Assembly: GCF_016595415.1 (NCBI RefSeq)
Contig: NZ_JAENIO010000034.1
Location: 1 to 45,565, forward strand
DNA from: Roseibacillus ishigakijimensis
GTDB lineage: Bacteria > Verrucomicrobiota > Verrucomicrobiia > Verrucomicrobiales > Akkermansiaceae
DNA length: 45,565 bases
Direction: 5' to 3'
The notes under the pieces: generated by a model
The model's input: only the letters and a program-made list of their open reading frames with translations
Databases searched by the model: none
What the model was told of the DNA's origin: nothing
Made by a program: the position numbers and the translations under genes
Shown: positions 4,801 through 42,905 of the stretch, piece after piece
Layout of the letters: every line of letters starts with the position of its first letter
Numbering within the stretch: the first letter of the stretch is position 1

Positions 4801-6514
4801 GCCCTTGTTGGAAAGCGACCCCGAGCGCGCCTTGGCTTTGGGAGAAAAGTCACCATGGCCACGCTTGCGCCAGTCTCTCTTCCGTCGCGCCACCGAAATT
4901 CCCGCTGGCCGCTCCGCTGTTATGAGCCGTTTGTCCCGCAGCAACAACGCAGCCGAATTCACTCGCCTGGCCGGGCAGCTCCTATCCGGCTTGGCGGGAG
5001 CGACCACCACGCCTCCGCCCCAAGGCTGGCAGGCGGCCAAAGAGCATGCCCGCACACTCGGCGACGATCCAGCCCTCGCCTCCATTCTGCGAGAACTGGG
5101 CACCCGATTCGGAGACGAGGAATTTTTTCCCCAGCTCCGGGCTTTGCTTGGCGACGAGACCAAAGACGCCAAAGCTCGCCTCCGGGCCTTGGAGCTTCTC
5201 ACTCTAGGAGCCGATCCCAAGCTGGCCCCTGCTGCCCGCCGAGCGCTCTCCTCCCCACCCCTGCAAGAAGCCGCCGTCGCTGCCCTGCGGGATTTCCCGG
5301 GTCCCGAGACCGCCCGGGCCCTCGTTGCCATTCTGCCGGAACTCAGCCTTTCCACCCGCCATGCCGCCATCAATACCCTCGCCTCCCGAGCCGATATGGC
5401 CCTGATCCTACTCACTGCCATTGATGAAGGGGACCTCGACTCCGCTCTCCTCTCTCCCGTGATGCTGGATCAATTTGAGCGATTCGAGAACGAGGCTCTT
5501 TCCGCCCTCATCGCCCGGAATTGGAGCCGGGGCCAAGCCTTGCTGAGCCCGGAGGCCTTGGCCGAAGCCACCGCCCGCTGGGAACAAGTCCTCTCGCCCG
5601 ACCACCTGGCGGCCGCCGATGCCTCCCGGGGACGTGAGGTCTTCGACAGAACCTGCGGAACCTGCCATCAACTTTTTGGGGAAGGAATCGCCCTCGGCCC
5701 CGACCTCACCGGCTCCAACCGGGCGGATTTGGGCTATTTGCTGGAAAACGTCCTCGCACCAGGCGCTATCGTTGGTAAAGCCTACCAGCTCAATATCATC
5801 ACCTTGGCCGATGGTTCCACCCTCAGTGGAATGGTGACCCGTGAGTCCGCCCATCAATTCGAGCTCACCCTCCCCGGCGGCACCACGCGAGCTGTCGCCA
5901 AAGACGAAGTCACTAAAAGAGAAGAACTAACCCAATCTCTGATGCCAGCGGGATTATTCGAGACTTTGGAAATCCAGGAAGTCACCGACCTGGTGAAGTA
6001 TCTCGCCAGCTCGCAACAAGTTCCACTTCCTTCCGAGAAGGACAAAAATCGCGCCATTCCCAAGCCCGCTCCAGGAGTGATTCGCTTGGAAGGCGAGGAC
6101 TTGGTCTCGGCGGCCTCGACGGAGCACGGACAGGTTTCCGCCCAAGGGATGGGCGGCTTTTCTGATCACTGGAGCGGGGACAGCCAGCTGTGGTGGCGGG
6201 GCGCGAACCCCGGCGCCGTCCTCACGCTGAAAATCGAGGACTTGGCGGCGGGGACGAAAAAGCTCATTCTCTTTCCCACCACCGCCCGCGATTACGCCAC
6301 AGTGCGCGTGGTCATCAATGGCCAGATCCGGGAAGTCGACCTCTACACCACCGAAGTTAAGCAGGGCCTTCCCTTGTATTTTCCAAACGTCACCATCGCC
6401 CCAAAAGAGCCACTGCAAATCGACATCCACTTGACGGGCAAGAATGCAGCCGCCGCGCCGGGCTACATGTTTGGCTTGGATCGCATCGAGATCGAAGAGA
6501 GCCGGGCAAAATAA
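1850..6514 (+). CDS. Secreted FG-GAP / PVC-type membrane-bound dehydrogenase / cytochrome c fusion
   Basis: A predicted exported redox enzyme of 1554 aa, of a type expanded in Planctomycetes and Verrucomicrobia; its substrate is unknown, with sugars or alcohols suspected for the family. Order of parts: signal peptide (1-20); six FG-GAP/VCBS-like Ca-binding loops of the DxDGDGxxD kind near residues 53, 102, 206, 251, 311 and 375 (predicted beta-propeller); the PVC dehydrogenase propeller from about 436 (FELPDGFTMDLIAAEPEI onward); an alpha-helical HEAT-like stretch about 820-1240; and a cytochrome c domain with a CGTCH haem site at C1269-H1273, followed by the Planctomycete-type GPDLTGSNR segment. 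A C-terminal beta-rich domain (about 1405-1554, opening GVIRLEGEDL) resembles a carbohydrate-binding module. An N-terminal FG-GAP propeller fused to this enzyme is less common than the PVC-HEAT-haem core alone. It converges on the PATR gene. Confidence 0.9.
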   Translation: MNRFALLLPLLLSFSTFFAAKRDWQEQEKKGSAPWETRWLTREFHAEGAGVGDIDGDGTADLSYGPFWWAGPDYSQVHRFAEGGALDGSQGYANNFFSHIVDADRDGDGDILVIGFPGQEARLYRNPGPASEEPLWEVFPIAEIINNESPHFVDLAAGGLPELVCSRDGEYGYYQAGEDPFAKWKWQAISEKGDAGGRYEHGLGVGDMNSDGLDDVVASHFWFENPGTQGLWKKHRWNEASFPGGSQILVHDYDGDGDSDVVTSLAAHGYGLSWFEQTAPGQFTAHAIMGESSTNNPFGVCFSQTHAMARADIDGDGREDFVTGKRYYAHQGKDPGGLEAPVLYWFRNTPTKEGIEFVPHLVDQASGVGVEIKVADLNDDQRPDLITSNKHGLALHFQKGKSPVTSNPSLRWKVPAGRPQEDYGSNLTPEEARDKFELPDGFTMDLIAAEPEITQPIAITFDARGRLWVLEGRTYPERAPEGKGQDRVVILEDKDGNGSFESRTVFAENLNLASGIAVGFGGVYVGAAPHLLFLPDRDQDDRPDGPAEILLDGWGYQDTHETLNSFTWGPDGWLYGCHGVFTHSLVGKPGTADEDRTPLNAAVWRYHPESQDFEIFAHGTSNPWGLDFDEHGEFFISACVIPHFYHLSPGGRYQRQAGQHFEPWVYDDIKTIADHAHYAGKISDHAFWGDNFTSRPAAPADTSALGGGHAHCGLVYYDAPEFPPAWRRQMFFHNLHGHRIVSEAIEKKGSGYIARHRPDFALSHNHQFVGVALLQGPDGALYFSDWVDSQTCHHRDVEIWDRSNGRIFRARYGDAKNTTLTLPSQSDSELVITLAHPNSFHARQAQRLLQERKHFGALHREETATALEQFEHTHAKQPELLLRALWARHVAGLLSSEQLRETLAHRDETLRAWAVRLAPADSAFHSALTKMARNETSLRVRRSLASKLQSLPEELRWSLAEGLSTHELSAQDSNIPLLVWYGLAPLLESDPERALALGEKSPWPRLRQSLFRRATEIPAGRSAVMSRLSRSNNAAEFTRLAGQLLSGLAGATTTPPPQGWQAAKEHARTLGDDPALASILRELGTRFGDEEFFPQLRALLGDETKDAKARLRALELLTLGADPKLAPAARRALSSPPLQEAAVAALRDFPGPETARALVAILPELSLSTRHAAINTLASRADMALILLTAIDEGDLDSALLSPVMLDQFERFENEALSALIARNWSRGQALLSPEALAEATARWEQVLSPDHLAAADASRGREVFDRTCGTCHQLFGEGIALGPDLTGSNRADLGYLLENVLAPGAIVGKAYQLNIITLADGSTLSGMVTRESAHQFELTLPGGTTRAVAKDEVTKREELTQSLMPAGLFETLEIQEVTDLVKYLASSQQVPLPSEKDKNRAIPKPAPGVIRLEGEDLVSAASTEHGQVSAQGMGGFSDHWSGDSQLWWRGANPGAVLTLKIEDLAAGTKKLILFPTTARDYATVRVVINGQIREVDLYTTEVKQGLPLYFPNVTIAPKEPLQIDIHLTGKNAAAAPGYMFGLDRIEIEESRAK

Positions 6515-13604: not shown

Positions 13605-15089
13605 ATGATCACGCGATTCATTCGACCCGAACTGGCTTCCTGGCGCGAGGCCGCCCGGGATTTGCTGTTGCAACAGGTGCCCCCGGGCGAAGTTCTCTTC
13701 GATGACGGCAGCGCCACCGCCTCCCTTTTTCTCGCGGAAGAAACAGCGGCCTACTCGTCCCGACCCCATTATAACCCCAGGGACTTGCCCGATCTCCGCA
13801 TCCCCCAGCGCTTCCTCGACCTCGCCACCTTGGCCAGCTGCCACCGCGAGGCGAATCGGTGGAACCTGCTCTACGAAGCCGTTTACCGTCTCAATCACGG
13901 CGAACGACATCTCTTGGGCAATCAAGCCGACCCGGCGGTGCGCACGCTCTCCCGCCTGGCCAAAGCGGTCTCGCGCGACCGCCACAAAATGAAAGCCTTC
14001 GTTCGCTTTCGCAAAGTGGGAGAACATCCCGACAGCGGTCGCGAGCAATTCGCGGCCTGGTTCGAGCCCGAGCACCACATCGTCGAACTCACCGCTCCTT
14101 TTTTTGCCAAACGCTTCGCCTCTTTCGACTGGTCGATCCTCACTCCCGACCGCTGCGCTCATTGGGAGAAGGAAAAGCTGCACTTCACCGCCGGAGTGGA
14201 GGTCGGCGCCGCCCCCGCCGATGACGAGCTGGAGGAATTCTGGCGCACCTACTACGCCAGCATCTTCAATCCCGCCCGCCTCAAACTGCAGGCCATGCAA
14301 AGCGAGATGCCCAAGAAATATTGGAAGAATCTCCCCGAAACGCCCCTCATCTCCAGGTTGACCGCCAGCGCCTCGAACCGCTCCAGCGAGATGGTCGAGA
14401 AAGGGCCGAATCACGAGCGGGGGCACGTCTCCGCAAACACCCCGCGAGGCGCCCTCCATCCCGACACGGACCAGCCCGGACTCTCGCCCGTCGCAGCCCT
14501 CGCCCAAGCGCACGACCTCTCCCTGACTCAGATTGACGAAGCCGCCACCGCCTGCCGGTCCTGCCCCCTCTACGAAGCTGCCACCCAGACCGTTTTTGGC
14601 GAAGGCCCCCCCAACGCCCGCGTCATGGTCATTGGCGAACAACCCGGGGATCAGGAGGACATTGCCGGAAGACCCTTCGTCGGCCCGGCAGGAAAACTCC
14701 TCGACCGGGCCCTCGAAACCGCAGGCCTGGACCGCAAGGCGCTCTACCTCACCAACACCGTCAAACATTTCAAATTCAAGATCCAAGGAAAGCGACGCCT
14801 CCACGAGCGCGCCAACGCGGAAGAAATCCATCACTGCAAGCCCTGGGTCCTCGCCGAAATCCTTAAAGTCAAACCCGAGGTCATCGTCTTGTTAGGAAAC
14901 ACCGCTGGCCAAGCACTCCTCGACCCCAGCTTTCGGGTTCTCAAGAATCGTGGTCCCATCAACGCCCCTCATCTCGCCCCCCAAGTCGTCGCCACCATCC
15001 ACCCCAGCTACCTGCTCCGCCTCCCCGACCCCGCCCAGGCCGACGCTGAATTCCAACAATTCGTCACCGACCTCAAGCTGGCTCTCTAG
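13605..15089 (+). CDS. udgX: DUF4130 - UdgX-type uracil-DNA glycosylase fusion protein
   Basis: A 494-aa two-domain repair protein. The N-terminal half (about 1-260) is the DUF4130 domain that accompanies the radical SAM partner (EANRWNLLYEAVYRLNHGERHLL, then RDRHKMKAFVRF and YWKNLPET). The C-terminal half (about 310-494) is a family-4-like uracil-DNA glycosylase: C-x2-C (CRSC), GEQPGDQEDIAGRPFVGPAG from residue 344, and HPSYLLRL at H466. The loop KRRLHER places His at residue 400. In Mycobacterium UdgX the matching His in KRRIH attacks the deoxyribose and leaves a covalent uracil-DNA adduct, so suicide-type chemistry is predicted. The linker (about 270-310) is low-complexity. It is 7 bases downstream of the radical SAM gene and ends 2 bases before the convergent RtcB-like gene. 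Confidence 0.93.
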   Translation: MITRFIRPELASWREAARDLLLQQVPPGEVLFDDGSATASLFLAEETAAYSSRPHYNPRDLPDLRIPQRFLDLATLASCHREANRWNLLYEAVYRLNHGERHLLGNQADPAVRTLSRLAKAVSRDRHKMKAFVRFRKVGEHPDSGREQFAAWFEPEHHIVELTAPFFAKRFASFDWSILTPDRCAHWEKEKLHFTAGVEVGAAPADDELEEFWRTYYASIFNPARLKLQAMQSEMPKKYWKNLPETPLISRLTASASNRSSEMVEKGPNHERGHVSANTPRGALHPDTDQPGLSPVAALAQAHDLSLTQIDEAATACRSCPLYEAATQTVFGEGPPNARVMVIGEQPGDQEDIAGRPFVGPAGKLLDRALETAGLDRKALYLTNTVKHFKFKIQGKRRLHERANAEEIHHCKPWVLAEILKVKPEVIVLLGNTAGQALLDPSFRVLKNRGPINAPHLAPQVVATIHPSYLLRLPDPAQADAEFQQFVTDLKLAL

Positions 15090-31712: not shown

Positions 31713-33041
31713 ATGCCAACCCAGTTTTATTCCACCAACGACCGCAACAATGTGCAGCCGCTCAGGGAGGCCGTGCTGCGCTCCCTCCCCGCCGACCGCG
31801 GCCTCTACATGCCCGAGGAAATCCGTCCCTTGCCAGAGAGTTTCTGGCAAAATTGGCGCGACCTCTCTCTGGGCGGACTCGGCTTCGAGGTCACCCGCCA
31901 CCTTCTGCAGGGCACCCTTCCCGAGGAGGAACTCAAGGCCCTGGTGGAAGAGGCCATCAATTTTCCCGCCCCCCTGCACCAGCTCACCGAGGACCTCTCC
32001 GTGCTGGAGCTCTTTCACGGCCCGACCCTGGCCTTCAAAGACTTCGGGGCCCGCTTCATGGCCCGCCTGATGGGCTTCCTCACCAAGGACGATGGCCGCG
32101 ACCTCACCGTCCTGGTAGCCACTTCGGGAGATACGGGAGGAGCCGTAGCCAGCGCCTTTCACAAGGTCCCCGGCACCAAGGTCGTCATCCTCTACCCCAA
32201 AGGCGGGGTCTCCGGTCTGCAGGAGAAACAGCTCACCACCCTGGGAGACAACATCACCGCCCTCGAGGTGGCGGGCACCTTTGACGACTGCCAACGTCTG
32301 GTGAAAGCCGCTTTTGCTGACCGGGAGCTTTCGGAGCGCCTCAATCTGACTTCGGCCAACTCCATCAACATTTCACGCCTCATTCCGCAGTCTTTCTACT
32401 ACTTCGAGGCCGCGCGCCAAGTGCCCGAAGGGCAAAAGCCTACCTTCATCGTGCCTTCGGGTAACTTCGGCAACCTCACCGCCGGTCTCCTCGCGCAAAG
32501 ACTGGGTCTGCCGGTGGAAAAATTCGTCGCCGCCACCAACACCAACGACGTCGTGCCCCGCTACCTCATGAATGGAAACTACGAGCCGCGTCCCAGCGTG
32601 GCCACCATTTCCAATGCCATGGACGTGGGCGCGCCTTCCAACTTTGCCCGCATGGTGGACCTCTTCGCCCGCCCCGGCAATCCCACCGCCCGGACTCTCA
32701 GCGACGCTGATGCTGCCGACGAGATGGCCCGCCAGCTCGAAGGCCTGGCCTACACCGACAAGGCTACCCGCCAAGCTATCCGCGAAGTGTGGGAAAACTA
32801 TCGCTACGCCCTCTGCCCCCACACCGCCGTGGCATACCTCGCAGCCAAGGATATCACCACCCCCGGCCACAAGGTCATCCTCTCCACCGCGCATCCTTCC
32901 AAATTCCTCCCCACCATGGAGGAGGAGCTGGGCAAAGGCGCGGTCACCGTCCCCGAGCGTCTCGCCTGCCTCGCGGAAGAGAAGAAAGTGGCGCAGGAAA
33001 TCGAGCCCGACGAAGCGACCTTCCTCACCTGGCTCGGCTAG
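31713..33041 (+). CDS. thrC: Threonine synthase ThrC
   Basis: A 442-aa PLP enzyme converting O-phosphohomoserine to threonine. It carries the gamma-type N-terminus (MPTQFYSTNDRNNVQPLREA), the PLP lysine in HGPTLAFKDFGARFMA, the phosphate loop ATSGDTGGAVASAF, SANSINISRLIPQ, and SGNFGNLTAGLLA. Length fits ThrC of the yeast/E. coli type. It ends the thrB-uma2-thrC unit and converges on the DUF3686 gene 56 bases away; no terminator is visible. Confidence 0.96.
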   Translation: MPTQFYSTNDRNNVQPLREAVLRSLPADRGLYMPEEIRPLPESFWQNWRDLSLGGLGFEVTRHLLQGTLPEEELKALVEEAINFPAPLHQLTEDLSVLELFHGPTLAFKDFGARFMARLMGFLTKDDGRDLTVLVATSGDTGGAVASAFHKVPGTKVVILYPKGGVSGLQEKQLTTLGDNITALEVAGTFDDCQRLVKAAFADRELSERLNLTSANSINISRLIPQSFYYFEAARQVPEGQKPTFIVPSGNFGNLTAGLLAQRLGLPVEKFVAATNTNDVVPRYLMNGNYEPRPSVATISNAMDVGAPSNFARMVDLFARPGNPTARTLSDADAADEMARQLEGLAYTDKATRQAIREVWENYRYALCPHTAVAYLAAKDITTPGHKVILSTAHPSKFLPTMEEELGKGAVTVPERLACLAEEKKVAQEIEPDEATFLTWLG

Positions 33042-33097
33042 CAGTCGGTTGAAAAAGGAGGGAATGAAAAACGGCGAGCCATGTTGTCGGCAGGCTG

Positions 33098-36000
33098 CTA
33101 ATCTCCCTGCTCCACGCTGGGCTGGATGTCGATGGGCGAAGCGCTCTTCTCAATGCTTTCAATAGAATCGTCCTCGTCCTGCACGGGAACGACCTTGATG
33201 TCGACCTGCACCGGCACCGCCCGCAGGCCCGAGATGATCTCGCGCAACTGAGCAACGGTTTCTTCCGTAAGAGACTGCGGCTTGGCGTAGTGGCTACCAG
33301 CTTGCATGATGCCCTGCTCGATGGAGGAAAGACCTTCGCGAAATTCCTGCAACTGGGCCACCACCCGGGCCACCGGGTCGTTTTCGCCCGCCCCTCCGAG
33401 GAGCTTCTGCTTGCGGAACTCTTTCTTGATCTCGGCCCACCGGGCCGCCTCTTTCTCGCTCAAGAGCCCTTCCATCTCCCGGAATTTCAACAAATTGGCC
33501 TCCGCTCCGGTGGTCAGGTTCTGGGCCTCATTTTCATAGTGGGAGACCACCAGTTCCTGCAGCTCCCCGTCCGTCATCAGGGGCACCACCTTCTCCGCGA
33601 TGCGGTTCATATTCCGATAGGAGCCCTGCAGTTTGAAGGCGGGCTCGGTGCGGTAGGCATCCTCCTGCGCGGCACTGGCGATGTATTCCAGATTCACCCG
33701 CAGAATGGTATCGCGCACCTGATAGAGCAACTTCATGCCGCGCACGAACTCTTCGATCTCACCTGGCGTATAATTGCTCTCGAAGTCCACTTCCTCCAGC
33801 TCGGCCCCCGCGGCCATCTTCATCACCGCCCGCACGTCCTTCAGCCCGCCCTGTGCCAGACTGGCCAGCGACTTGTTGGAGGTGAGACAGTTTTCAATAT
33901 AGCTGTCTTTGAAGGCCGACTCGTGGCTGCCGAGAATGTCGCCCAAGTTGTAGGTATCGGCCCGGTTGGCCAACATGTCGGGAATCTGGAACTTCCCCCC
34001 GCTCTCGGTGTAGGGATTGCCCGCCATCACCACCGCCACTTTTTTCCCCTTCAAGTCGTAGGTCTTAGCCCGCCCCTGATAGACCCCTTCGATCTTCCGC
34101 TGGGCATCACAGAGACTGATGAACTTCTGCAGGAACTCGGGGTTGAGATGCTGAATATCATCGAGATAGAGCATCACATTATCCCCCATTTCCAGGGCCA
34201 GGTTGAGCTTCTCGAGCTCTTCTCCCGCCGAGCGATCACCCGCCTGGGCGGGATCCAACGAGGTGACATGGTGCCCCAGAGCCGGTCCATTGACCTTCAC
34301 AAAAGTCAGCCCCAGGCGATTGGCCACATACTCCATCAGAGTGGTCTTTCCGTAGCCAGGCGGGGAAATCAAGAGCAAGAGCCCCATCCGATCGGTGCGG
34401 GAATCCGCGCCCGCCGTGCCAATTTGTTTGGCCAGATTGTCCCCGATGACCGGTAGGAAAACTTCATCTAACAAACGGTTACGAACGAAGGCACTCATCA
34501 CCTCGGGTTTGAGTTCCTCCAACTTCATCTCCTCCCGCTTGACCGCGATCAATTCCTTCTTGCGGGTTTGAAACTGGTGATAGAGGGGCAAGACTTCATC
34601 GCGGAAGTTGGCGACTCTTTCGCGAAAATCGTTGTAGTGAAGCTCCAGCACTCCCCCTTCAATCCGGGGATGGGAACCGCGCAGCCCTTCAATGGTCAGG
34701 GCCAAATCGAGATGGCGAACCTCCCGCTGCTCGTGGCCACCCCGGGCCAAATGAGCCGCCGCTTCCACGAGAATCCCCGTAGCGACCTCCTCCCCGGCCA
34801 CTCCCCGCAACCAATCCAGCGCCAGGGCATGGCGGGACTCGGCCCGGCTCAATTCCGCCAGTGCCTTATCAAAGTCCTCGCCCGCGCGCTTGGCGGTGAG
34901 CTCATGGCGCAAGTGTTTGATCACATCCGCAGCCCCTTGCGAAACGACAAAACCGTCCCCCTCCCGCAATTGGGCAAAGAGATATTCCGCCACCTGGGCC
35001 GCCGTCACCCGTCCGGCAAACCGCGATCGCGCCAATTGCCCGGCCAACTCGTCCGCCAGGGCCAGCTCCAGCTCGTGGCGACCCGCCCCCCGATCAGCAA
35101 AGACTTTCACTCGCCGGCCATGCCCCGCAATCAAGCGGGCAATCTCGGCCCGACCTTCCTGATCCCGATCGGTCCACAACACCATCCCGGCCCCCCGCAC
35201 CAGAGGGCTGAAGCGCAGCAGCCCAGCCTCCCGCGCAAGCGGCCAGAGGGCCGCCAGAATACGGGCGGCATCCTCGTCGTGAACCCCTTTGACATAGCCC
35301 TCGGCATAACGGGATTGCATGAAACCCTGCACCCCGGGCAGGAAGTCCGCGGCACTCTCCCCTTCCCACTCCTTATCTAACAGAAGGCTGACCAGCCACT
35401 CTCCCCGATAGAGGTCGGGACTCTCGCTGGCCACTTCCAGATTCCACACCGCCTTGCTTTCGGTGAAGGCCGCATCCTCAATCTTCTCAAAAAAATCGGT
35501 GCCCGCGAGATGAAACCACATTTCCCCGTCCCTCGGCACGATGGAGAGCTCGAGCTCGCGCGTATTGACCCCAAAGGCATGCTGGCCCAGCCGAATAACG
35601 TTCTGGCCATCCACATACAGCTCCTTGCGATCCTTCAGCTGGCGGGCGGCATCCTCACGGAGGGTTTTCAGCCGGGTGCGGAGATCATCCGCCTTCACCC
35701 GATCGCCGAGACCCTGCAAGTCCGCGACCACCCCGCGCACCTTTTCCACCATCAGGTCACCCGCAAAGTAACCATTGATCTCCTCCAGATTTTCAAAGGA
35801 CTCCAAGCGACGCTCAATGCCTCCCAGAATGCGCTCGGCAGACCGCAGGAGGGAGCCCGCGCGGCGATTGCGCTCATCGATCAGCTGCTGCTTGCGACCC
35901 TCAAAGGCTTCGTAAACTTCCTCGCGCTTACCGGCCAACTCCTCAACATAGTCATCAAACTCCGCGAAACGCCCCTCCAGCTCTTCGAGCTGAATCATCA

Positions 36001-38146
36001 GCTTGGTGAGCGACTCGTCACACTTCTCCGGGGTGTCGCAGACCTCCAGATAATTGACCACCGCTTGCGAGATCAGCTTCATCTGAGCGCTGAACTGGGC
36101 CACTCCCTCGGATTTGGCCAAGTCCGTGCGCTTGTTCTTCAGGTCCGCCCGCACCCCGTTCAACTCAGCGTAGATACTAGAAATGCCGTCGATAATGGCC
36201 GTGGTCTGGGTGGCGTCCTCGATCTTGAGATTGCCAACGATCTCGATGAGCAGCTCCAGCTCACTCCCGGCCTTATCGAGAGCCTCGGCCACCTCGTCCG
36301 CCTCAGTGACCTTCGCCAGATCGGGGATGCGCCGTCCCTGCTCAGTGACCGCCTCCCGGTAGGGCGAGAGGGCCTCCTCCTTGAGCAGGAAGGCCACCGT
36401 TTTCCCGGAAGTGGCTTCGCTGGCCTCCACCAGCCGGCTCTCCAAGTCGGAGATCACCTCCTCAGGAGCATAGCGCACCTCGCGCAGGCCAATGACCTCA
36501 CCCCGCCGGGTGCGCAGCTCCGAGAGATGATGAACGAAGCCGAAAATATCATCAGGCGCGGAGTGGCGCACTTTCCCCAAGAGCGCTTCCACCGCCTCCT
36601 TGACCTCCCGGGTGCGTTCGCTCGCCGCTTGCCGCTGGGCACGCACTTTGTCGAACTCGGCGAGCGCGGACTGGGCCGCCCCGTTGATTTCCCGCAGGGG
36701 CAAGGACAGCCGGGCCGTTTCCTCCTTATCCAACCAGAAATAGGAATCGAGGAGATCGTTGGTCCGCTTGACCAGGTCGAGATAGAGTCCACCGTAGTTG
36801 TCATCCTTGCCTAACAAAGTGAGCACCTCCCGGCACTCCGACATCCCGCGCACCAGGTCGGCATTGCCCACTTTGAAGAGATAGGAGCTCTGGTCCTGCT
36901 GCTGCCGGGCCAAGGCCTCCTCACTGAGATAGGGCGTGGTCCAGACTTGCAAGGAATGGTGCTTTTGGGCCGCCTCCTCGGTCTTGAAATAAACCAGTTC
37001 GCCATTGGGAAAGAGCGAATAGCCATTGCAAATGACGGGAGAATCGACGGTCTGGCTAATCAGGTTGTAGGAAAGGAGAACATAGTCACCACTGACCCGA
37101 TTATAGAACACAAAGAGCGTGTCCTCTCCATTGGCCGAGACCACGCGGCGCTCGAAGACCATGTTGGAGAGCGCGGTATCAAAGATCTTCACCTCCCCGG
37201 TCAGGAGGAGATAGCCATTGGAAAAAATGAGGCCCTGCTCGTCGGGCAACAGCACACAGGAATGCCCGATGGCATCGATGCGCTTCACCTCCCGGGTCTT
37301 TTCGTTAAAGACCAGATAGCGATGCGACTCCTCGCGATAAGGCAAAATCTTCAACAAGACCAAGGGGCCGACCTCGGCATAGAAGATTTCGGCATCGTCC
37401 AGAGACTGGTCCGCATCCTCCACCGGCTCGGCGTAGATCCCCTCACCGCTTTCGGTATTGTCCTCGATCTTGATGGTGAGGTCGCCGCCCACGGTTTCCA
37501 CAAAGACCCGGTCATTGATGGAGACATGGGGGTGAAGGCCCGCGCGCTGCATGTCGCGATGGGCTCGCTTCCACTCGAATTCCTGCTGGGGCGGGTATTG
37601 AAACTCGTGATCGAAACGATTCCCGAGATACTCAAGATGGCCGTCACCAGGGCGCAGCCACTTGAAGGTTTTGAAGTCGTCAACACTCTTGCCAATCCGC
37701 ATCTTGAGATAGAGATGCGGCCCGATCACCATGAATTTGTTAAAAACGGTCTCTTTGTAATACTTATAGAGATATTTGAAATCATCGGAAAAAGCCGAGT
37801 CGGAGAGAATCTCCTCAATGGGGAGAGGATGGAAATGATGCCCTTCCGGATCATACTCGTAGGCCGCGAAAACATCGGAAATCTCGGTGGTCTGTTTAAG
37901 CCCGAATTGAATATTGTAGCCGAAAAGAAAACGGTTTCCTCCCACCGCAATGAGGTCGCGGGGCACGCAATTGTGCTCGGTGGTCACCCTGTCGGTGGCC
38001 ACGAGAGCAGTTTCGATCGCGCCGAAGATCTCCTTGCGGGACTCATTGAGCTGGCCCAGGCGCGAGCGGAGGTCCTCGCCATGCTTCTCGAGCCGGGCCC
38101 GAATGACCTCATAACTCCCTCCTTCTAATTGTTCGGTATTTGACAT
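33098..38146 (-). CDS. Giant DUF3686-type AAA ATPase ('DNA repair ATPase')
   Basis: A 1682-aa protein; its relatives are labelled DNA-repair ATPases, but the real role is unknown. The N-terminal 450 residues (FGYNIQFGLKQTTEISDVFAAYE onward) form the DUF3686-like beta-rich part. Long coiled coils rich in Glu/Leu/Lys follow at about 480-870. The C-terminal AAA module has Walker A PPGYGKTTL near residue 1260, Walker B NVMLYLDDIQ near 1325, and a VMAGNPYTESGGKFQIPDMLANRADTYNLGDI stretch (sensor and arginine-finger region). There is no signal peptide. Close relatives are found next to flotillin and YqiJ-like genes, as here (38895 and 40953), so it may dock on a flotillin membrane scaffold. Confidence 0.88.
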   Translation of the reverse strand: MSNTEQLEGGSYEVIRARLEKHGEDLRSRLGQLNESRKEIFGAIETALVATDRVTTEHNCVPRDLIAVGGNRFLFGYNIQFGLKQTTEISDVFAAYEYDPEGHHFHPLPIEEILSDSAFSDDFKYLYKYYKETVFNKFMVIGPHLYLKMRIGKSVDDFKTFKWLRPGDGHLEYLGNRFDHEFQYPPQQEFEWKRAHRDMQRAGLHPHVSINDRVFVETVGGDLTIKIEDNTESGEGIYAEPVEDADQSLDDAEIFYAEVGPLVLLKILPYREESHRYLVFNEKTREVKRIDAIGHSCVLLPDEQGLIFSNGYLLLTGEVKIFDTALSNMVFERRVVSANGEDTLFVFYNRVSGDYVLLSYNLISQTVDSPVICNGYSLFPNGELVYFKTEEAAQKHHSLQVWTTPYLSEEALARQQQDQSSYLFKVGNADLVRGMSECREVLTLLGKDDNYGGLYLDLVKRTNDLLDSYFWLDKEETARLSLPLREINGAAQSALAEFDKVRAQRQAASERTREVKEAVEALLGKVRHSAPDDIFGFVHHLSELRTRRGEVIGLREVRYAPEEVISDLESRLVEASEATSGKTVAFLLKEEALSPYREAVTEQGRRIPDLAKVTEADEVAEALDKAGSELELLIEIVGNLKIEDATQTTAIIDGISSIYAELNGVRADLKNKRTDLAKSEGVAQFSAQMKLISQAVVNYLEVCDTPEKCDESLTKLMIQLEELEGRFAEFDDYVEELAGKREEVYEAFEGRKQQLIDERNRRAGSLLRSAERILGGIERRLESFENLEEINGYFAGDLMVEKVRGVVADLQGLGDRVKADDLRTRLKTLREDAARQLKDRKELYVDGQNVIRLGQHAFGVNTRELELSIVPRDGEMWFHLAGTDFFEKIEDAAFTESKAVWNLEVASESPDLYRGEWLVSLLLDKEWEGESAADFLPGVQGFMQSRYAEGYVKGVHDEDAARILAALWPLAREAGLLRFSPLVRGAGMVLWTDRDQEGRAEIARLIAGHGRRVKVFADRGAGRHELELALADELAGQLARSRFAGRVTAAQVAEYLFAQLREGDGFVVSQGAADVIKHLRHELTAKRAGEDFDKALAELSRAESRHALALDWLRGVAGEEVATGILVEAAAHLARGGHEQREVRHLDLALTIEGLRGSHPRIEGGVLELHYNDFRERVANFRDEVLPLYHQFQTRKKELIAVKREEMKLEELKPEVMSAFVRNRLLDEVFLPVIGDNLAKQIGTAGADSRTDRMGLLLLISPPGYGKTTLMEYVANRLGLTFVKVNGPALGHHVTSLDPAQAGDRSAGEELEKLNLALEMGDNVMLYLDDIQHLNPEFLQKFISLCDAQRKIEGVYQGRAKTYDLKGKKVAVVMAGNPYTESGGKFQIPDMLANRADTYNLGDILGSHESAFKDSYIENCLTSNKSLASLAQGGLKDVRAVMKMAAGAELEEVDFESNYTPGEIEEFVRGMKLLYQVRDTILRVNLEYIASAAQEDAYRTEPAFKLQGSYRNMNRIAEKVVPLMTDGELQELVVSHYENEAQNLTTGAEANLLKFREMEGLLSEKEAARWAEIKKEFRKQKLLGGAGENDPVARVVAQLQEFREGLSSIEQGIMQAGSHYAKPQSLTEETVAQLREIISGLRAVPVQVDIKVVPVQDEDDSIESIEKSASPIDIQPSVEQGD

Positions 38147-38196
38147 TGTTCAATCAGCCCTCCACGGGGCGGTAGCAGTTGCACATTCGAGCAGAA

Positions 38197-38256
38197 GTCC
38201 CGCAGGGACGGTCAGAAAGTAGCCGGGGGCAAGAGAGGCACGAACGCGGCCCCCGG
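38197..38256 (+). repeat. Left REP element of the RAYT unit
   Basis: A short hairpin GTCCCGCAGGGAC is followed by CAGAAAGTAGCCGGGGG (38213-38229). The tetranucleotide GTAG sits directly 5' of a stem CCGGGGGC...GCCCCCGG (38222-38230 with 38249-38256), the hallmark of REP sequences. The 17-base block is repeated in inverted orientation on the other side of the transposase gene. Confidence 0.8.
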
Positions 38257-38314
38257 TCCCCGTCGGAAAAAAGCACGTCCTCTGCAGGAGGACCAGAAGC
38301 GGGTAAATGAGCAT

Positions 38315-38764
38315 TCATCCCCAAAGGTAGCGTTCATCATACTCGACCAATCCTCTCCGCAAGAAGGCCAGATATTCGTCTTCAAAGCTCAGCTTCCGAT
38401 GGTGCTCCTCTTGGGAGAGAACATACTGGCGCACCTTCTCCAGATCGGGGGCCCCCACGGAAAAAGCACCATATCCAGATTGCCAACCGAAGGCCTTGCG
38501 TTGGAGCTTGCCTTTGATCCATTTCGAAGAATCAGCTTTCAGGTCTCTCATGAAGTCCGACAGGCAATGGGCAGGCCGCAACCCGACCAGAAGGTGAACG
38601 TGATCAGCCACTCCACCCACCGCATGAGGGACCCCTTTCAACCCTCTCACCACCCCTCCCAGATAGGCAAAAAGCGGCGGCCGAAAGTCCGCTTCAAACC
38701 AAGATTCCCGTTTCCGGGTGGAAAACACAAGATGATAGTGGAGAGAGGAATGTGTTGAGCCCAT
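38315..38764 (-). CDS. REP-associated tyrosine transposase (RAYT, IS200/IS605-like, Y1 HUH)
   Basis: A 149-aa single-domain Y1 transposase. It has the HUH motif in GVADHVHLLVGL, the opening SLHYHLVFSTRKR, and the C-terminal helix VRQYVLSQEEHH in which the catalytic Tyr of the family lies; FGWQSGYGAFSVG precedes it. It is intact. It is flanked by two inverted REP elements (38197-38256 and 38825-38884) with GTAG before the hairpin, the usual arrangement of RAYTs, which act on REPs in host genomes rather than as ordinary insertion sequences. It sits between the DUF3686 ATPase and flotillin genes, so it interrupts what is otherwise one locus. Confidence 0.92.
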   Translation of the reverse strand: MGSTHSSLHYHLVFSTRKRESWFEADFRPPLFAYLGGVVRGLKGVPHAVGGVADHVHLLVGLRPAHCLSDFMRDLKADSSKWIKGKLQRKAFGWQSGYGAFSVGAPDLEKVRQYVLSQEEHHRKLSFEDEYLAFLRRGLVEYDERYLWG

Positions 38765-38824
38765 CGATTCGTTATTCTTTACCTTCCAAGAGAGTTTCTT
38801 GCGCTCTTCCAGAGCGCGCTCTCT

Positions 38825-38884
38825 CCGGGGATTCTTTCCCCGGGGGCTTCACCCCCGGCTACTTTCTGCTGTTCCCTTCGGGAC
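38825..38884 (-). repeat. Right REP element of the RAYT unit
   Basis: On the minus strand it reads GTCCCGAAGGGAAC, then CAGAAAGTAGCCGGGGG (complement of 38852-38868), then a perfect hairpin CCGGGGG-TGAAG-CCCCCGG (38840-38858). The GTAG tetranucleotide lies at 38859-38862. It is closely similar to the left element in the same order of parts, but inverted. An overlapping alternative hairpin CCGGGG/CCCCGG lies at 38825-38843. Confidence 0.85.
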
Positions 38885-38894
38885 CTCATGGTTT

Positions 38895-40928
38895 TCACCC
38901 CAACTTTTTCATCACCTCCCCGGCCTTGGCGTCGGAGAGGCCAAAGCGCTCGGCGGCACCCAACATCCCGATGAGACTGGTGCGCTTCTCGCCGCTGGAT
39001 TCACTGATGAGCTTGCTCAAGAGCGCGGACAGGGAAAGGTTCTTGAGGTCCTCGGAATCGACGCCGAAATCCTGGATCCATCCGCCCAACTGGCTCTTGA
39101 AATAATCGGGATCGCCATTGAAGAAGGTCTCCTTGACGTCGTCGATGACCCGGCTGTTGTCCACCACCCGGTCGACCACTTTGCCCGTGGTGATGGCGCG
39201 GGTGATGCGATCGAAGAACTCGGTCTCGCCTCCCACGATATCGATCTTGGCGCTCTTGAGAGCCTCGCCCACCACCTTGGCCTGCTCGGCGGCAATCTGG
39301 CGCTGGACATCGATCTCGGCCAGTTCGACCGCTTTCTCTTTCTCCAGCTCAAGCTTGAACTCTTCGTGCTCTTGGCCCGCTTCTTCGAAGAGCTTCATGG
39401 CGGCAGCCTTCAGCTCGATAGCTTCGGCGTCGGCCAGGCCCTTGGCCTTGAGCACTTCCGCTTCGCCCAGCCCCATAGCGGCGGCTTCCTTGGCAATCGC
39501 TTCCGCCAACAACTTCTTGGCGGCGGCCTCCTTGGCGGAAGCCGTCTCCTCCGCTTCGGCCGCGATGATGCGCTGCTCGGCCTTCATTTCGGCCGCCTGA
39601 CGACCAGCTTCGGCCTCCTTGAGCACCTCGTAGGCTTTCTCGTCGGCCGCAAATTGCGCCGCTTCCTTCTGGGCTTCGGCTTCCTTGATGCGGCCAATGA
39701 GTTTCTCCTGCGCCATCGCTTCGGCAAGGGTGACAGTGACCTGCTTCTGCCGATCGGCGGTGGCAAATTCCTCGGTGTCCTTGATGCGTTGTTGCTCTTC
39801 AACGACCGTTTTCTCGACCGCCACCCGCTCGCGGATAACTTCCTGGATTTCCTTCTTCTGCACCTCGACCGCTTTCTCAGCTTCGATGCGCTTCAGTTCG
39901 GTGACCCGCTCGCGTTCGATTTCCTCCAACTTGCGCTCGCGTTCGACGCGCTCCAGCTCGACCGCATCGGTGCGCTCTTTGTTGCGCAGGGCGACGAGAA
40001 CCTGACGTTGCTTGTTCTCGTCGGCGATCATGATCTCCTCTTCAGCCGCGATGCGGGCCTGTTCGCTGCGCTGACGCTGCTCTTCGCGAATCTTGGCCGT
40101 TTCCGCCTCTTCGCGGGCGCGCACGGTTTCCACTTCGCGCTGCTGCTTGGCTTCAGTCTCGGCCAGTTGACGCTCCAGTTCGAGAATGGCTTCGCGGGCT
40201 TCCACATCCTGTTGCTTGATGACGCGCTCCTTGTCGCGCTCGATGTGGTTGGAGAGCTTCTTCTGCTCGGCAGTGAGGTGGGTGATTTTCTTAATCCCCT
40301 CGGCATCCAGAATGTTGTCCGGATCGAGCATCTCCACCGGAGTCTGTTCCAAGAAGTCGATGGCCGCGTCATCGAGAATGAAGCCATTGAGGTCGGTGCC
40401 AATCACCTTCAGGATCTCATCGCGGAAAGTGTCGCGATCTTCATAAAGCGAGATGAATTCGAAGCGTTTCCCGACGGTCTTGAGGGCTTCCGAGAACTTG
40501 GCATCAAAGAGCTTGCGAATCTCGTCCTCGGAGGAAGCCCGATCGCAGCCCACACTCTCAGCCACCCGCAGGACATCCTCGGAAGCATGATTGACGCGCA
40601 CGAAGAAGGCGACCTTGATGTCGGCCCGCATGTTGTCCTTACAAATGAGTCCGTTACGACCCGTGCGATCAATTTCGATGCGCTTGAGGGAGATATCCAT
40701 GTAGTCGGCGCGATGGAGAACGGGCACGACGAGACCGGCATTGAAGATCACCTTGGTGCCGCCCTGACCGGTGCGAATGAGGGCCGTGCCTTTCTCCACC
40801 TTCCGGTAGAAACTGGTCACGACAAAAATGCCGAGGGCAAGGATTCCCAAAACGGCCAGGATGACCACGAGGACGATGGAGCCTCCCAAATCCGGCAGGA
40901 AGGCCAAGTGCAGCATTGATGTTTTCAT
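38895..40928 (-). CDS. Flotillin-like SPFH/Band 7 membrane protein (YqiK-like)
   Basis: A 677-aa scaffold protein of membrane microdomains. There is one N-terminal membrane helix (IVLVVILAVLGILALGIFVV, about residues 16-36), then the SPFH/Band 7 domain (about 38-230; GTALIRTGQGGTKVIFNAG, LKRIEIDRTGRNG, RADIKVAFFVRVNHASEDVL), and a very long Glu/Ala/Lys/Arg-rich coiled coil (about 240-590). The C-terminal part (EALKSAKIDIVGGETEFF) is the usual flotillin tail. It begins 24 bases after the YqiJ-like gene and is upstream of the RAYT and the DUF3686 ATPase. A membrane scaffold for the giant ATPase is the simplest hypothesis. Confidence 0.93.
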   Translation of the reverse strand: MKTSMLHLAFLPDLGGSIVLVVILAVLGILALGIFVVTSFYRKVEKGTALIRTGQGGTKVIFNAGLVVPVLHRADYMDISLKRIEIDRTGRNGLICKDNMRADIKVAFFVRVNHASEDVLRVAESVGCDRASSEDEIRKLFDAKFSEALKTVGKRFEFISLYEDRDTFRDEILKVIGTDLNGFILDDAAIDFLEQTPVEMLDPDNILDAEGIKKITHLTAEQKKLSNHIERDKERVIKQQDVEAREAILELERQLAETEAKQQREVETVRAREEAETAKIREEQRQRSEQARIAAEEEIMIADENKQRQVLVALRNKERTDAVELERVERERKLEEIERERVTELKRIEAEKAVEVQKKEIQEVIRERVAVEKTVVEEQQRIKDTEEFATADRQKQVTVTLAEAMAQEKLIGRIKEAEAQKEAAQFAADEKAYEVLKEAEAGRQAAEMKAEQRIIAAEAEETASAKEAAAKKLLAEAIAKEAAAMGLGEAEVLKAKGLADAEAIELKAAAMKLFEEAGQEHEEFKLELEKEKAVELAEIDVQRQIAAEQAKVVGEALKSAKIDIVGGETEFFDRITRAITTGKVVDRVVDNSRVIDDVKETFFNGDPDYFKSQLGGWIQDFGVDSEDLKNLSLSALLSKLISESSGEKRTSLIGMLGAAERFGLSDAKAGEVMKKLG

Positions 40929-40952
40929 AGTTTGATAAAGTTTGCGGTCTAG

Positions 40953-41603
40953 TTACGAGAGGTCACCTTCCTCAAAGGCCCGGACGAGATACTTGTCACG
41001 CTCCGGATCGTAGTCGTAGACCAGAATGCGATCGCCCCGCACAAGGGAATCGCGGCCTTCGGGAAGAATGGCGTTCAGCAAGGCCGGAGCCCCTTGTCCG
41101 CGGGGAACCTCCACTTGTCCGAAATCGGCATCCAGCACTCGGCTCTTCACGGTCCCGGAAAGGCCGATGAGCGGCTCCTGGTGCTCGTCGTCATACTTCA
41201 ACGAGCGCAAAAATGGACGTAAAGGCTGGGTCACTCCTTTCACCAGCAGCGCGCTAAGGATGAAATTCGGCAGCAGCAATCCGACGGCCACCAACCCGCT
41301 TTCACCCGGATTGAGGCTCGCATTGGCAAAGATCGAGAGGGCCCACATGAAGAGAATGAGCAGGCTCAAGACGATCATGAGGGGCACATCCTGCGCATTG
41401 ACGAAGCGGAGGAGGAAACCGAGGAAGCCATCACCTCCGGCACTGGCGGAATCGCCTTCGGTATCGGCATCCAGATCGAAATCAAAGCTATCGAGATCGA
41501 CGGCCCCGGCCGCGCTGAGGACCCAGTAGAGACCGACTACAAACAACAGTCCGGTCAATGGTAAATTATAGCCTAACAACGAATGCTCCCAAAGCTCTAT
41601 CAC
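40953..41603 (-). CDS. YqiJ-like membrane protein with OB-fold/NfeD-type soluble domain
   Basis: A 216-aa partner protein that in other bacteria is encoded beside YqiK-type flotillins. It has three hydrophobic segments (LPLTGLLFVVGLYWVLSAAG; PLMIVLSLLILFMWALSIFA; SGLVAVGLLLPNFILSALLV), an acidic loop between the first two (FDFDLDADTEGDS), and a C-terminal soluble part (about 140-216; LIGLSGTVKSRVLDADFGQVE) that fits an NfeD-like OB-fold. GTG 41603 is used as start because no ATG precedes the first helix. It is the first gene of the flotillin locus. Confidence 0.85.
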   Translation of the reverse strand: MIELWEHSLLGYNLPLTGLLFVVGLYWVLSAAGAVDLDSFDFDLDADTEGDSASAGGDGFLGFLLRFVNAQDVPLMIVLSLLILFMWALSIFANASLNPGESGLVAVGLLLPNFILSALLVKGVTQPLRPFLRSLKYDDEHQEPLIGLSGTVKSRVLDADFGQVEVPRGQGAPALLNAILPEGRDSLVRGDRILVYDYDPERDKYLVRAFEEGDLS

Positions 41604-41683
41604 GATGGGAGCATTGAAGGGAGAAAGTCACCGGAAGACGATTACAAAGCGCATAAAGTTTTGCAGCGCGGAAAATGGGAAAA

Positions 41684-42424
41684 CTAGCGCCGGGCCCGGG
41701 GATTGACGAAGGGATTGTTAGAGCCATAGAGGCACCAGGGGCCCCGGGGCACGTGCTCAATCTCGACAAAACGCCAGTGCACCTTTTGCCCGGACTTGAG
41801 GCCCATGTAATCGCGCACGGCGGGAGAAACATCGATGCCAGCGCCACCATTCTTGGTGTTTTTGGGAGGCTTGTTCATGAAGACAAACTCCCAGTCGGTG
41901 GTGTTGAAAGGCCCGCAATCTTCCCATTGGGCATAGCAAACCTTGCCATTGCGCGCGATCTCCACCCAGCGGCCGCGGCAGACCGTCTTGCCCGGTTCAG
42001 GGCGATAGCGGGCGAACCAGGGAATGACCTTGGAGGCCTCGGGCTTGTGCATGCGATGGTTCACCACATCATTGTAGGGCAGGGCGATATAGAAAGGGTT
42101 GAGCTTGGGAGTGAAGGCCTTGGGGAGATAGCCACGCCGGGCCGAGGGATCAGGATCGTCGTAGCCGCCGTAGTTGGCCTGCCAATTGACATCCCAAGAG
42201 GACTTGTTGTTCGGGGTGGGATTGCGCGAAGTGGGCTTTTCCCCAATCCAGAAAATGGTAGCCGTAGTCCCGAGGTGCCAGGGGTAGCGCGGGATGCCCC
42301 CCTGCATGGCGGGAGCCTGGGAAGCCCGCCGGTGAGCACTGGGAGCGGTCACGGTCGGCCCCTGGGATTGACCCCAAAGAGGAAGAACGGTCAGGAGCAA
42401 AAGGAAAAATTGACGAGACGGCAT
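41684..42424 (-). CDS. Secreted protein with RlpA-like double-psi beta-barrel features
   Basis: A 246-aa exported protein. ATG 42424 gives a good signal peptide (MPSRQFFLLLLTVLPLWGQ); a TTG 9 bases earlier is less likely. The mature part opens HLGTTATIFWIGEKPT, has FYIALPYND, then a Cys pair (TVCRGRWVEI and KVCYAQWEDCGPF), and GIDVSPAVRDYMGL. The NPFYIALPYNDV and ID(V/L)SP-A segments recall double-psi barrels such as RlpA, but the NDRGPF motif is absent (the similar spot is WEDCGPF). Hydrolase activity is not claimed. It is divergent from the cytochrome gene at 42465. Confidence 0.65.
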   Translation of the reverse strand: MPSRQFFLLLLTVLPLWGQSQGPTVTAPSAHRRASQAPAMQGGIPRYPWHLGTTATIFWIGEKPTSRNPTPNNKSSWDVNWQANYGGYDDPDPSARRGYLPKAFTPKLNPFYIALPYNDVVNHRMHKPEASKVIPWFARYRPEPGKTVCRGRWVEIARNGKVCYAQWEDCGPFNTTDWEFVFMNKPPKNTKNGGAGIDVSPAVRDYMGLKSGQKVHWRFVEIEHVPRGPWCLYGSNNPFVNPRARR

Positions 42425-42464
42425 GCTGGGCAAGTAGGATTTCCGTGATTATAACAGCGAACAG

Positions 42465-42905
42465 ATGAGAGCGACAACCAGCATTCTGATGGCCGGCGGC
42501 CTGCTATTGGCCTCCTGCGGACCCAACGATGATTCCGAGAGCAAGCTCAAAAGTCGTCCAGTCCTCAGTCCCCGACTGCAAGCTGAGACTCAGTCTTACC
42601 TCGATTTCGCCCGTCATGTGAAGCCCATTTTGGAAGAGCGTTGCGTTTGGTGCCACGATGGCAGCGACAAGAAGATGCCCTACTCGCTGGTCAATCGGGA
42701 AAAAGCCTTTGCCGGCAAGCGCATCGTGCCCGGCCAGCCGGAAAAAAGCCTCCTTTACCTCGCCGCCAGTGGAGAGCACCCCACCCTACAGATGCCGGCG
42801 GTGGGCGTGCAGGTAGCCGCTACGGACCTGGAGGTGCTGCGACGTTGGATTGCCACCGGCGCAGTCTGGCCCATGGGAAGCGCGGGCGAATTGAGAGGAC
42901 GCTGA
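42465..42905 (+). CDS. Small lipoprotein cytochrome c (planctomycete-type)
   Basis: A 146-aa exported haem protein. The signal peptide ends in lipobox LASC (Cys at residue 18). The haem site is C-V-W-C-H in ILEERCVWCHDGS, followed by KKMPYSLVNREKAFAGKRIVPGQPEKSLLYL and MPAVGVQVAATDLEVLRRWI, the layout of planctomycete cytochrome C (PSCyt1-like) domains, with Met in LQMPA as a possible second ligand. It may pass electrons from periplasmic dehydrogenases. Seven bases separate it from the DUF971 gene, so they probably form one transcript. Confidence 0.88.
   Translation: MRATTSILMAGGLLLASCGPNDDSESKLKSRPVLSPRLQAETQSYLDFARHVKPILEERCVWCHDGSDKKMPYSLVNREKAFAGKRIVPGQPEKSLLYLAASGEHPTLQMPAVGVQVAATDLEVLRRWIATGAVWPMGSAGELRGR

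Follow-up and report, generated by a model that had tools for sequence, protein, structure and literature searches.

Operons that combine a band-7/flotillin protein, a YqiJ/YuaF-type membrane protein and an AAA+ ATPase have been described by Ravi et al. (2024, PMC11237479), either together with PspA or in an "abbreviated" form, and the relevant passages of that paper propose the assembly of membrane-linked complexes and suggest that the abbreviated operons might work with a PspA encoded elsewhere in the genome. Here we describe such a set in Roseibacillus ishigakijimensis (assembly GCF_016595415.1), on a stretch of 45,565 nucleotides (positions 1-45,565 of contig NZ_JAENIO010000034.1, hereafter the window), where genes for a three-transmembrane YqiJ-type protein, a transmembrane SPFH-type protein (the flotillin) and a propeller-coiled-coil-AAA+ protein (the ATPase) are found together, matching the abbreviated operon. 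The association is already published in the passages cited and hence not new; what we add is the near-perfect pairing of a flotillin subfamily mostly missed by Pfam with the ATPase, the placing of its motor as MoxR/dynein-like, an unusual aspartate in its Walker B motif and counts that make PspA look optional. Cumulatively, our findings are best explained by a flotillin-anchored AAA+ machine that remodels stressed membrane proteins, a reading to which we assign a probability of roughly 55%.

Several other systems share parts of this set. In Staphylococcus aureus, FloA-NfeD stabilizes unfolded proteins at the membrane as an ATP-independent holdase (PMC11222466); like the trio it joins an SPFH protein to an NfeD-type membrane partner, but it is ATP-free, and the passages describing it mention no dedicated motor. 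HflK/C and the AAA protease FtsH form an assembly, and YbbK with FtsH is a further SPFH-AAA pair (PMC2636767); as presented in the passages concerned, the HflK/C assembly has the same pairing of an SPFH scaffold with an AAA motor, whereas FtsH is a membrane-bound protease and the ATPase here has neither a hydrophobic membrane segment by hydropathy nor a match to any protease family in Pfam. In Escherichia coli, yqiJ-yqiK likewise sets YqiJ beside an SPFH protein, both homologous to ours by hhalign, but no such ATPase gene is adjacent, and YqiK has a Flot C-terminal domain that is undetected here. The Pseudomonas aeruginosa bac operon was defined as a six-gene unit by reverse-transcription PCR. 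Its first two genes, bacA and bacB, encode a protein resembling type III chaperones and a PspA homologue, and mutants of either are defective in biofilms (PMC10948618, in the passages on this operon). It also contains NfeD and SPFH genes, BacD being the SPFH protein PaFlo3 encoded beside the NfeD gene (PMC13086221); the corresponding passages of the two papers do not give the identities of bacE and bacF, and it is our guess that BacE is the ATPase carrying the domain DUF3686. Compared with the abbreviated operon as outlined by Ravi et al. (PMC11237479), the R. ishigakijimensis locus has a transposase gene between two of its genes, and its PspA is distant and divergent. Compared with the full phage shock protein (PSP) operon, CesT/Tir-PspA, neither PspA nor CesT/Tir adjoins the trio, and the open reading frames of the window gave no match to either profile at 1e-8. 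The features of the locus are as follows:

40953..41603, minus strand: YqiJ/NfeD-like three-helix membrane protein, 216 residues, GTG start (open reading frame, hhalign, hydropathy)
38895..40928, minus strand: YqiK-like SPFH/flotillin protein, 677 residues, one N-terminal membrane region (open reading frame, hhalign, hydropathy)
40269..40826, minus strand: SPFH domain of the flotillin, residues 35-220 (hhalign)
38898..39416, minus strand: C-terminal part of the flotillin, residues 505-677, proposed dock for the ATPase (conserved residues)
38315..38764, minus strand: IS200/Y1 transposase gene, 149 residues (Pfam Y1_Tnp, 6.6e-21)
38194..38887, no strand: likely extent of the transposase insert (36-nucleotide inverted repeats, 83% complementary, at both ends)
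33098..38146, minus strand: giant AAA+ protein, 1682 residues (open reading frame, Pfam)
36932..38014, minus strand: predicted beta-propeller, residues 45-405, most of DUF3686 at residues 25-470 (AlphaFold2, structure comparison)
35618..36922, minus strand: predicted helical/coiled-coil arm, residues 409-843, containing DUF7902 (AlphaFold2, Pfam)
33464..34537, minus strand: AAA+ motor, residues 1204-1561, nearest solved folds CbbQ and NorQ (Pfam, AlphaFold2, structure comparison)
34340..34363, minus strand: Walker A motif PPGYGKTT, residues 1262-1269 (invariant, 62/62)
34157..34174, minus strand: Walker B motif, residues 1325-1330, ending Asp-Asp (D1329 and D1330 invariant, 62/62)

A preliminary description of this DNA had placed the YqiJ-like, flotillin and ATPase genes in order on one strand and held that the association recurs in other bacteria. 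The coordinates of the three reading frames and their order proved correct, the transposase gene between flotillin and ATPase having been overlooked, and the recurrence is borne out by two surveys. Of 29 other relatives with an ATPase match, 27 were taken, leaving out two short contigs (G004, G039). In all 27 the flotillin lies upstream of the ATPase on the same strand, two of the flotillins being cut short by contig ends. YqiJ was detected in 23, the misses being three loci at contig ends and L057. A scan of species genomes confirmed at least 536 loci, the best 80 of which were analyzed; these are not a random sample, share, judging by length, at least two contigs with the 27 relatives (L036/L067, L037/L061) and come, by record title, from Verrucomicrobiota, Bacteroidota, Planctomycetota, Desulfobacterales, Kiritimatiellota, Clostridia and others. 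Gene order was counted in the 62 loci that have 4 kb or more of upstream DNA, the other 18 (<4 kb) being left out, and the full order YqiJ-flotillin-ATPase on one strand was found in 56 of the 62. Of 69 flotillin-ATPase pairs measured, three have overlapping reading frames, and the median gap is 108 bases as counted from the first possible starts.

The genes are also coupled in their distribution over 189 genomes of the order (thresholds: flotillin E<=1e-60, YqiJ 1e-15, PspA 1e-10). The ATPase is present in 75 of these genomes; the flotillin was found in 74 of the 75 vs. none of the 114 genomes without the ATPase, and YqiJ, present in 70 genomes, in 68 of the 75 vs. 2 of the 114. The sole ATPase genome without a flotillin at this threshold, G143, is an assembly in about 540 contigs. 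YqiJ-like matches with internal stops and with no flotillin or ATPase match occur at G023:C43:46909-47250 and G045:C4:58988-59638; these are possibly remnants of a lost trio, stops inside YqiJ matches being weak evidence of decay, as they are also seen in trio genomes. Genus g3, of the same family, accounts for 19 of 20 listed ATPase-free genomes (of 114) and none of the 75 ATPase genomes; its genomes are small and nearly complete.

The identity of the two scaffold proteins is not apparent from Pfam. None of 23 aligned flotillins matches Band_7 or Flot (PF15975) at E<=1, keeping in mind that a diverged Flot copy could be missed, and the flotillins of L113, L121 and L144 likewise match neither family, whereas E. 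coli YqiK matches both families. By profile comparison, however, the flotillin aligns to E. coli YqiK with an hhalign probability of 100 (E 1.2e-39), and this match is not caused by the coiled coil, because the SPFH part by itself still aligns (probability 99.9, E 3.3e-32, 185 columns, 32% identity). A relative of the flotillin on plasmid pQBR103 matches Band_7 at 9.3e-11. Sequence searches of the PDB with the flotillin and YqiJ returned only QmcA, in an alignment (E 0.007) that lies beyond the SPFH part. The C-terminal part of the flotillin (residues 470-677) found no counterpart in YqiK (hhalign probability 9.8); within it I564, G566, G567, F571, D586 and S592 are invariant in 50 of 50 sequences, and we propose that this part docks the ATPase. 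The single hydrophobic region of the 677-residue protein is N-terminal by hydropathy, while the 216-residue protein has three hydrophobic segments, at residues 14-37, 67-98 and 101-125. The latter scores 21.9 bits against YqiJ_N (cut-off 23), a family matched by 11 of 21 members of its protein family at E<=1 (best 2.4e-6); it has no Pfam match to the YqiJ_OB domain, and it aligns to E. coli YqiJ with an hhalign probability of 91 (E 1e-6), the alignment reaching the C-terminal part. The family names YqiJ and flotillin/SPFH, both given in the preliminary description, thus hold by profile comparison with E. coli YqiJ and YqiK.

In the ATPase, Pfam recognizes DUF3686 (residues 25-470, E 3.1e-186), DUF7902 (residues 591-674) and an AAA domain from residue 1257, with AAA_5 scoring 25.7 against a cut-off of 22. 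The protein was modeled with AlphaFold2 as two halves, with mean predicted local distance difference test (pLDDT) values of 86.8 and 86.5 and predicted template modeling (pTM) scores of 0.63 and 0.76. The models place, in order, a beta-propeller at about residues 45-405, a long helical arm, a helical middle (about residues 914-1134) and the motor at residues 1204-1561. Whole-model TM-scores in Foldseek stay low, not exceeding 0.20 by query length, because it is single domains that match. The nearest listed fold to the propeller is the DCAF1 WD40 domain, at a modest Z of 9.8 (root-mean-square deviation, rmsd, 6.0; 224 aligned residues; 6% identity). For the motor, the nearest solved folds are CbbQ2 (Z 17.0, rmsd 3.8, 253 aligned) and NorQ (Z 16.3, rmsd 4.0, 242 aligned), followed by dynein AAA1 (Z 15.3) and ClpA (Z 13.7), so that its fold is predicted to be nearest the MoxR-type CbbQ/NorQ and MoxR/dynein-like overall. 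The literature searched contains no paper that brings together MoxR, AAA+, membrane and flotillin. CbbQ and NorQ differ in that their chains are of about 250-270 residues, NorQ having been solved with the VWA domain of NorD, whereas here the motor is one domain of a 1682-residue protein. Two strands ahead of the sensor-1 strand in the model fit a pre-sensor-1 hairpin, which serves as a marker. DUF3686 is therefore predicted to be a propeller far from the AAA domain, and its use as a label for the motor in the preliminary description was mistaken. The view that the Walker sites are intact was confirmed: PPGYGKTT, D1329 and D1330 are invariant in all 62 aligned ATPase sequences, as are N1377, R1395 and R1511, which by their position are presumably sensor 1, the arginine finger and sensor 2. 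In most AAA+ motors the second Walker B acid is glutamate; here it is the aspartate D1330.

A membrane-anchored AAA machine, as first described, is thus well supported by sequence, because 74 of the 75 genomes with the ATPase also have the flotillin, a membrane segment is present in the scaffold and the motor is intact. Its purpose had been left between membrane stress, DNA repair and defense, and this choice can be narrowed. Membrane stress is favored because of the company the trio keeps in operons: PspA adjoins it in 19 of the 80 loci, all Bacteroidota, and CesT/Tir accompanies it in 18 of the 80 (Bacteroidota), both lying upstream in the same orientation; the partners at L113, for example, match PspA (PF04012) at 4.4e-42 and CesT_Tir_1 at 7.3e-56. 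The genus Dokdonia has the full operon, at L109. On pQBR103 (L142, 1-13190) a row of YjfI, PspA, a rhomboid protease, DUF2491, DUF350, DUF1190 and glutathionylspermidine synthase genes continues with a 217-residue unannotated protein, the SPFH gene and the ATPase. The operons described by Ravi et al. (2024) point the same way, as far as the passages on them go.

We hypothesize that YqiJ, with its three helices and an expected OB-like tail, and the SPFH protein would form an oligomeric scaffold at the cytoplasmic face of the inner membrane that holds clients there, while the C-terminal part of the flotillin would dock the giant ATPase. The ATPase may read its substrate through the N-terminal beta-propeller and the coiled-coil arm. 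Its AAA+ ring, which is MoxR/dynein-like and, by analogy, would be a hexamer, would spend ATP under envelope stress to take apart or free membrane proteins that are damaged or wrongly assembled. PspA polymers, where present, would be a plausible substrate or co-worker, not an obligatory one. Prohibitins, too, are an FtsH-linked SPFH-AAA partnership. It is conceivable, though we advance this only tentatively and with the odds somewhat against it, that the trio represents another SPFH-AAA partnership, a PspA-independent, ATP-driven flotillin machine in which a non-proteolytic MoxR/dynein-like motor with a propeller reader docks on a C-terminal domain peculiar to the trio, in a flotillin subfamily mostly missed by Pfam, and actively clears the site at which the flotillin holds its clients.

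Several observations weigh against a flotillin-anchored remodeling machine. The gene order is broken in 6 of the 62 loci: no flotillin was found at L071 and L097, no YqiJ at L086, L119 and L123, and at L117 the scaffold genes lie on the opposite strand. Genes that are physically linked are gained and lost together on that ground alone, and such linkage contributes to the pattern seen across the order. The lead of the MoxR folds over dynein AAA1 is small (Z 17.0 vs. 15.3), and all are distant, at 13-14% identity. The Walker B aspartate could mean slow or absent hydrolysis. MoxR proteins are usually paired with a VWA partner; none was noticed among the families recurring in at least four loci, a result of general inspection without a targeted search. 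In the published literature searched, we found no experiment on this ATPase. Further, deletions of P. aeruginosa SPFH genes, including that for PaFlo3, had no pronounced phenotype in the passages reporting them (PMC13086221).

Among other explanations, the ATPase might belong to a PSP/ESCRT-type module, acting as a bacterial analogue of Vps4 whose main job is to disassemble ESCRT-III-like PspA polymers at flotillin patches. The PspA genes upstream of the trio in Bacteroidota and, on pQBR103, the row of YjfI, PspA and polyamine-type genes that ends in the trio both suggest this, and so does the proposal of a PspA encoded elsewhere, made for abbreviated operons in the passages of Ravi et al. (PMC11237479) noted above. 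R. ishigakijimensis itself carries a divergent PspA on a separate contig, C137, with scores of 33.3 and 34.6 bits against a Pfam cut-off of 33.9. This PspA-like gene lies at L059 6973-7740; with a score so near the cut-off annotation easily misses it, and its relatives are 55-87% identical in most matching genomes of the order. Using this own-type PspA as query, which can miss classical PspA (e.g., in G040), we found it among 58 relatives in 21 of 30 trio genomes vs. 11 of 28 others (p 0.03), or in 22 of the 30 when one classical PspA is counted too (p 0.02), and over the 189 genomes in 35 of 75 with the trio vs. 33 of 114 without (odds ratio 2.1, p 0.02), these being Fisher tests that ignore relatedness. 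The association is thus weak, and the same counts argue against dependence: fewer than half of the trio genomes have an own-type PspA, and many genomes have one without the trio. Of the 28 trio genomes of family f4, 27 are without it, and four of these 27 (G038, G042, G046, G049) have no PF04012 match at 1e-5 either; in family f3 it occurs in nine genomes and the trio in none. Moreover, the motor is nearer to MoxR and dynein than to other AAA folds in the aligned set. We rejected an obligate PspA partnership, own-type PspA being found in only 35 of 75 trio genomes; within the reach of this query PspA looks optional in the order, and a module devoted mainly to PspA seems to us unlikely.

Alternatively, the ATPase could organize rafts, controlling the assembly and turnover of the flotillin scaffold, and thus membrane fluidity, with no other client. 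That ATPase and flotillin are the tightest pair (74/75) fits this idea, but the large, conserved propeller and arm would suggest a client reader, and in E. coli K-12 yqiJ-yqiK stands without an adjacent ATPase gene of this kind, PF12458 being found in none of 14 control genomes; we consider it rather improbable. An anti-phage or mobile-element defense ATPase is suggested by a PADLOC match to LmuB (E 8.3e-7), by the patchy presence of the ATPase in the order and by plasmid records, of which 12 out of 72,556 give a match, several being as large as chromosomes. The LmuB match, however, is confined to residues 561-851, in the predicted coiled-coil arm; no second Lamassu gene was seen beside it, four other proteins tested giving no PADLOC match at E<=1, 50,697 phage records hold no match at 1e-10, near neighbors in the window look by eye like housekeeping genes, and the recurrent operon partners are envelope-stress genes. 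A role in phage defense was accordingly rejected on the confinement of the LmuB match to the arm and the missing phage-record match, and defense in general appears very improbable. The least credible proposal, a DNA-repair ATPase, takes up the Pfam description "ATPase involved in DNA repair", the product name "DNA repair ATPase" that RefSeq gives to plasmid copies and a RuvB_N match below threshold (24.1 bits vs. a cut-off of 27), but it was rejected for resting on this name and match only, the partners being membrane proteins, DUF3686 a predicted propeller, and the literature searched containing no paper that mentions DUF3686, or "DNA repair ATPase" together with flotillin.

We regard the transposase as an insertion that does not belong to the machine. 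Of three same-genus relatives, L035 has a similar insert (protein 76% identical) in the same gap, while L036 and L039 have none there, and on this ground the transposase was rejected as a machine component. A 28-base hairpin sequence from the edge of the insert has a single occurrence in the genome when up to two mismatches are allowed, so that no spread REP family with that pattern was seen. The same gap holds a small gene in L031, L040, L042, L043, L044, L045, L046 and L050, and remnants in L032 and L047. The copy in L045 is PDDEXK_3 (3.1e-36), the others having been judged by eye, and in the three loci tested (L042, L043, L045) the small gene is flanked by 23-33-nucleotide inverted repeats of short CCACGRA-like units. 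The flotillin-ATPase gap is a recurrent landing site, and the PDDEXK_3 element looks mobile.

Promoter and terminator scans of the locus did no better than on shuffled sequence (2 vs. 2.4 and 9 vs. 9.9), and an Rfam search of positions 32900-42600 gave no match reaching the gathering threshold. Elsewhere in the window, positions 13605-15089 encode a 494-residue protein with DUF4130 followed by a uracil-DNA-glycosylase domain, and positions 1850-6514 a 1554-residue protein with FG-GAP repeats, DUF7133 and a cytochrome c domain.

If the trio is indeed a flotillin-anchored machine that remodels stressed membrane proteins, the ATPase would give a holder system of the FloA-NfeD kind an energy source and would offer a testable model for how bacteria clear or reuse material held by flotillins. 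It would also put right the name "DNA repair ATPase", under which databases misleadingly list a widespread protein. For this order, the counts suggest that the published link to PspA is not obligatory.

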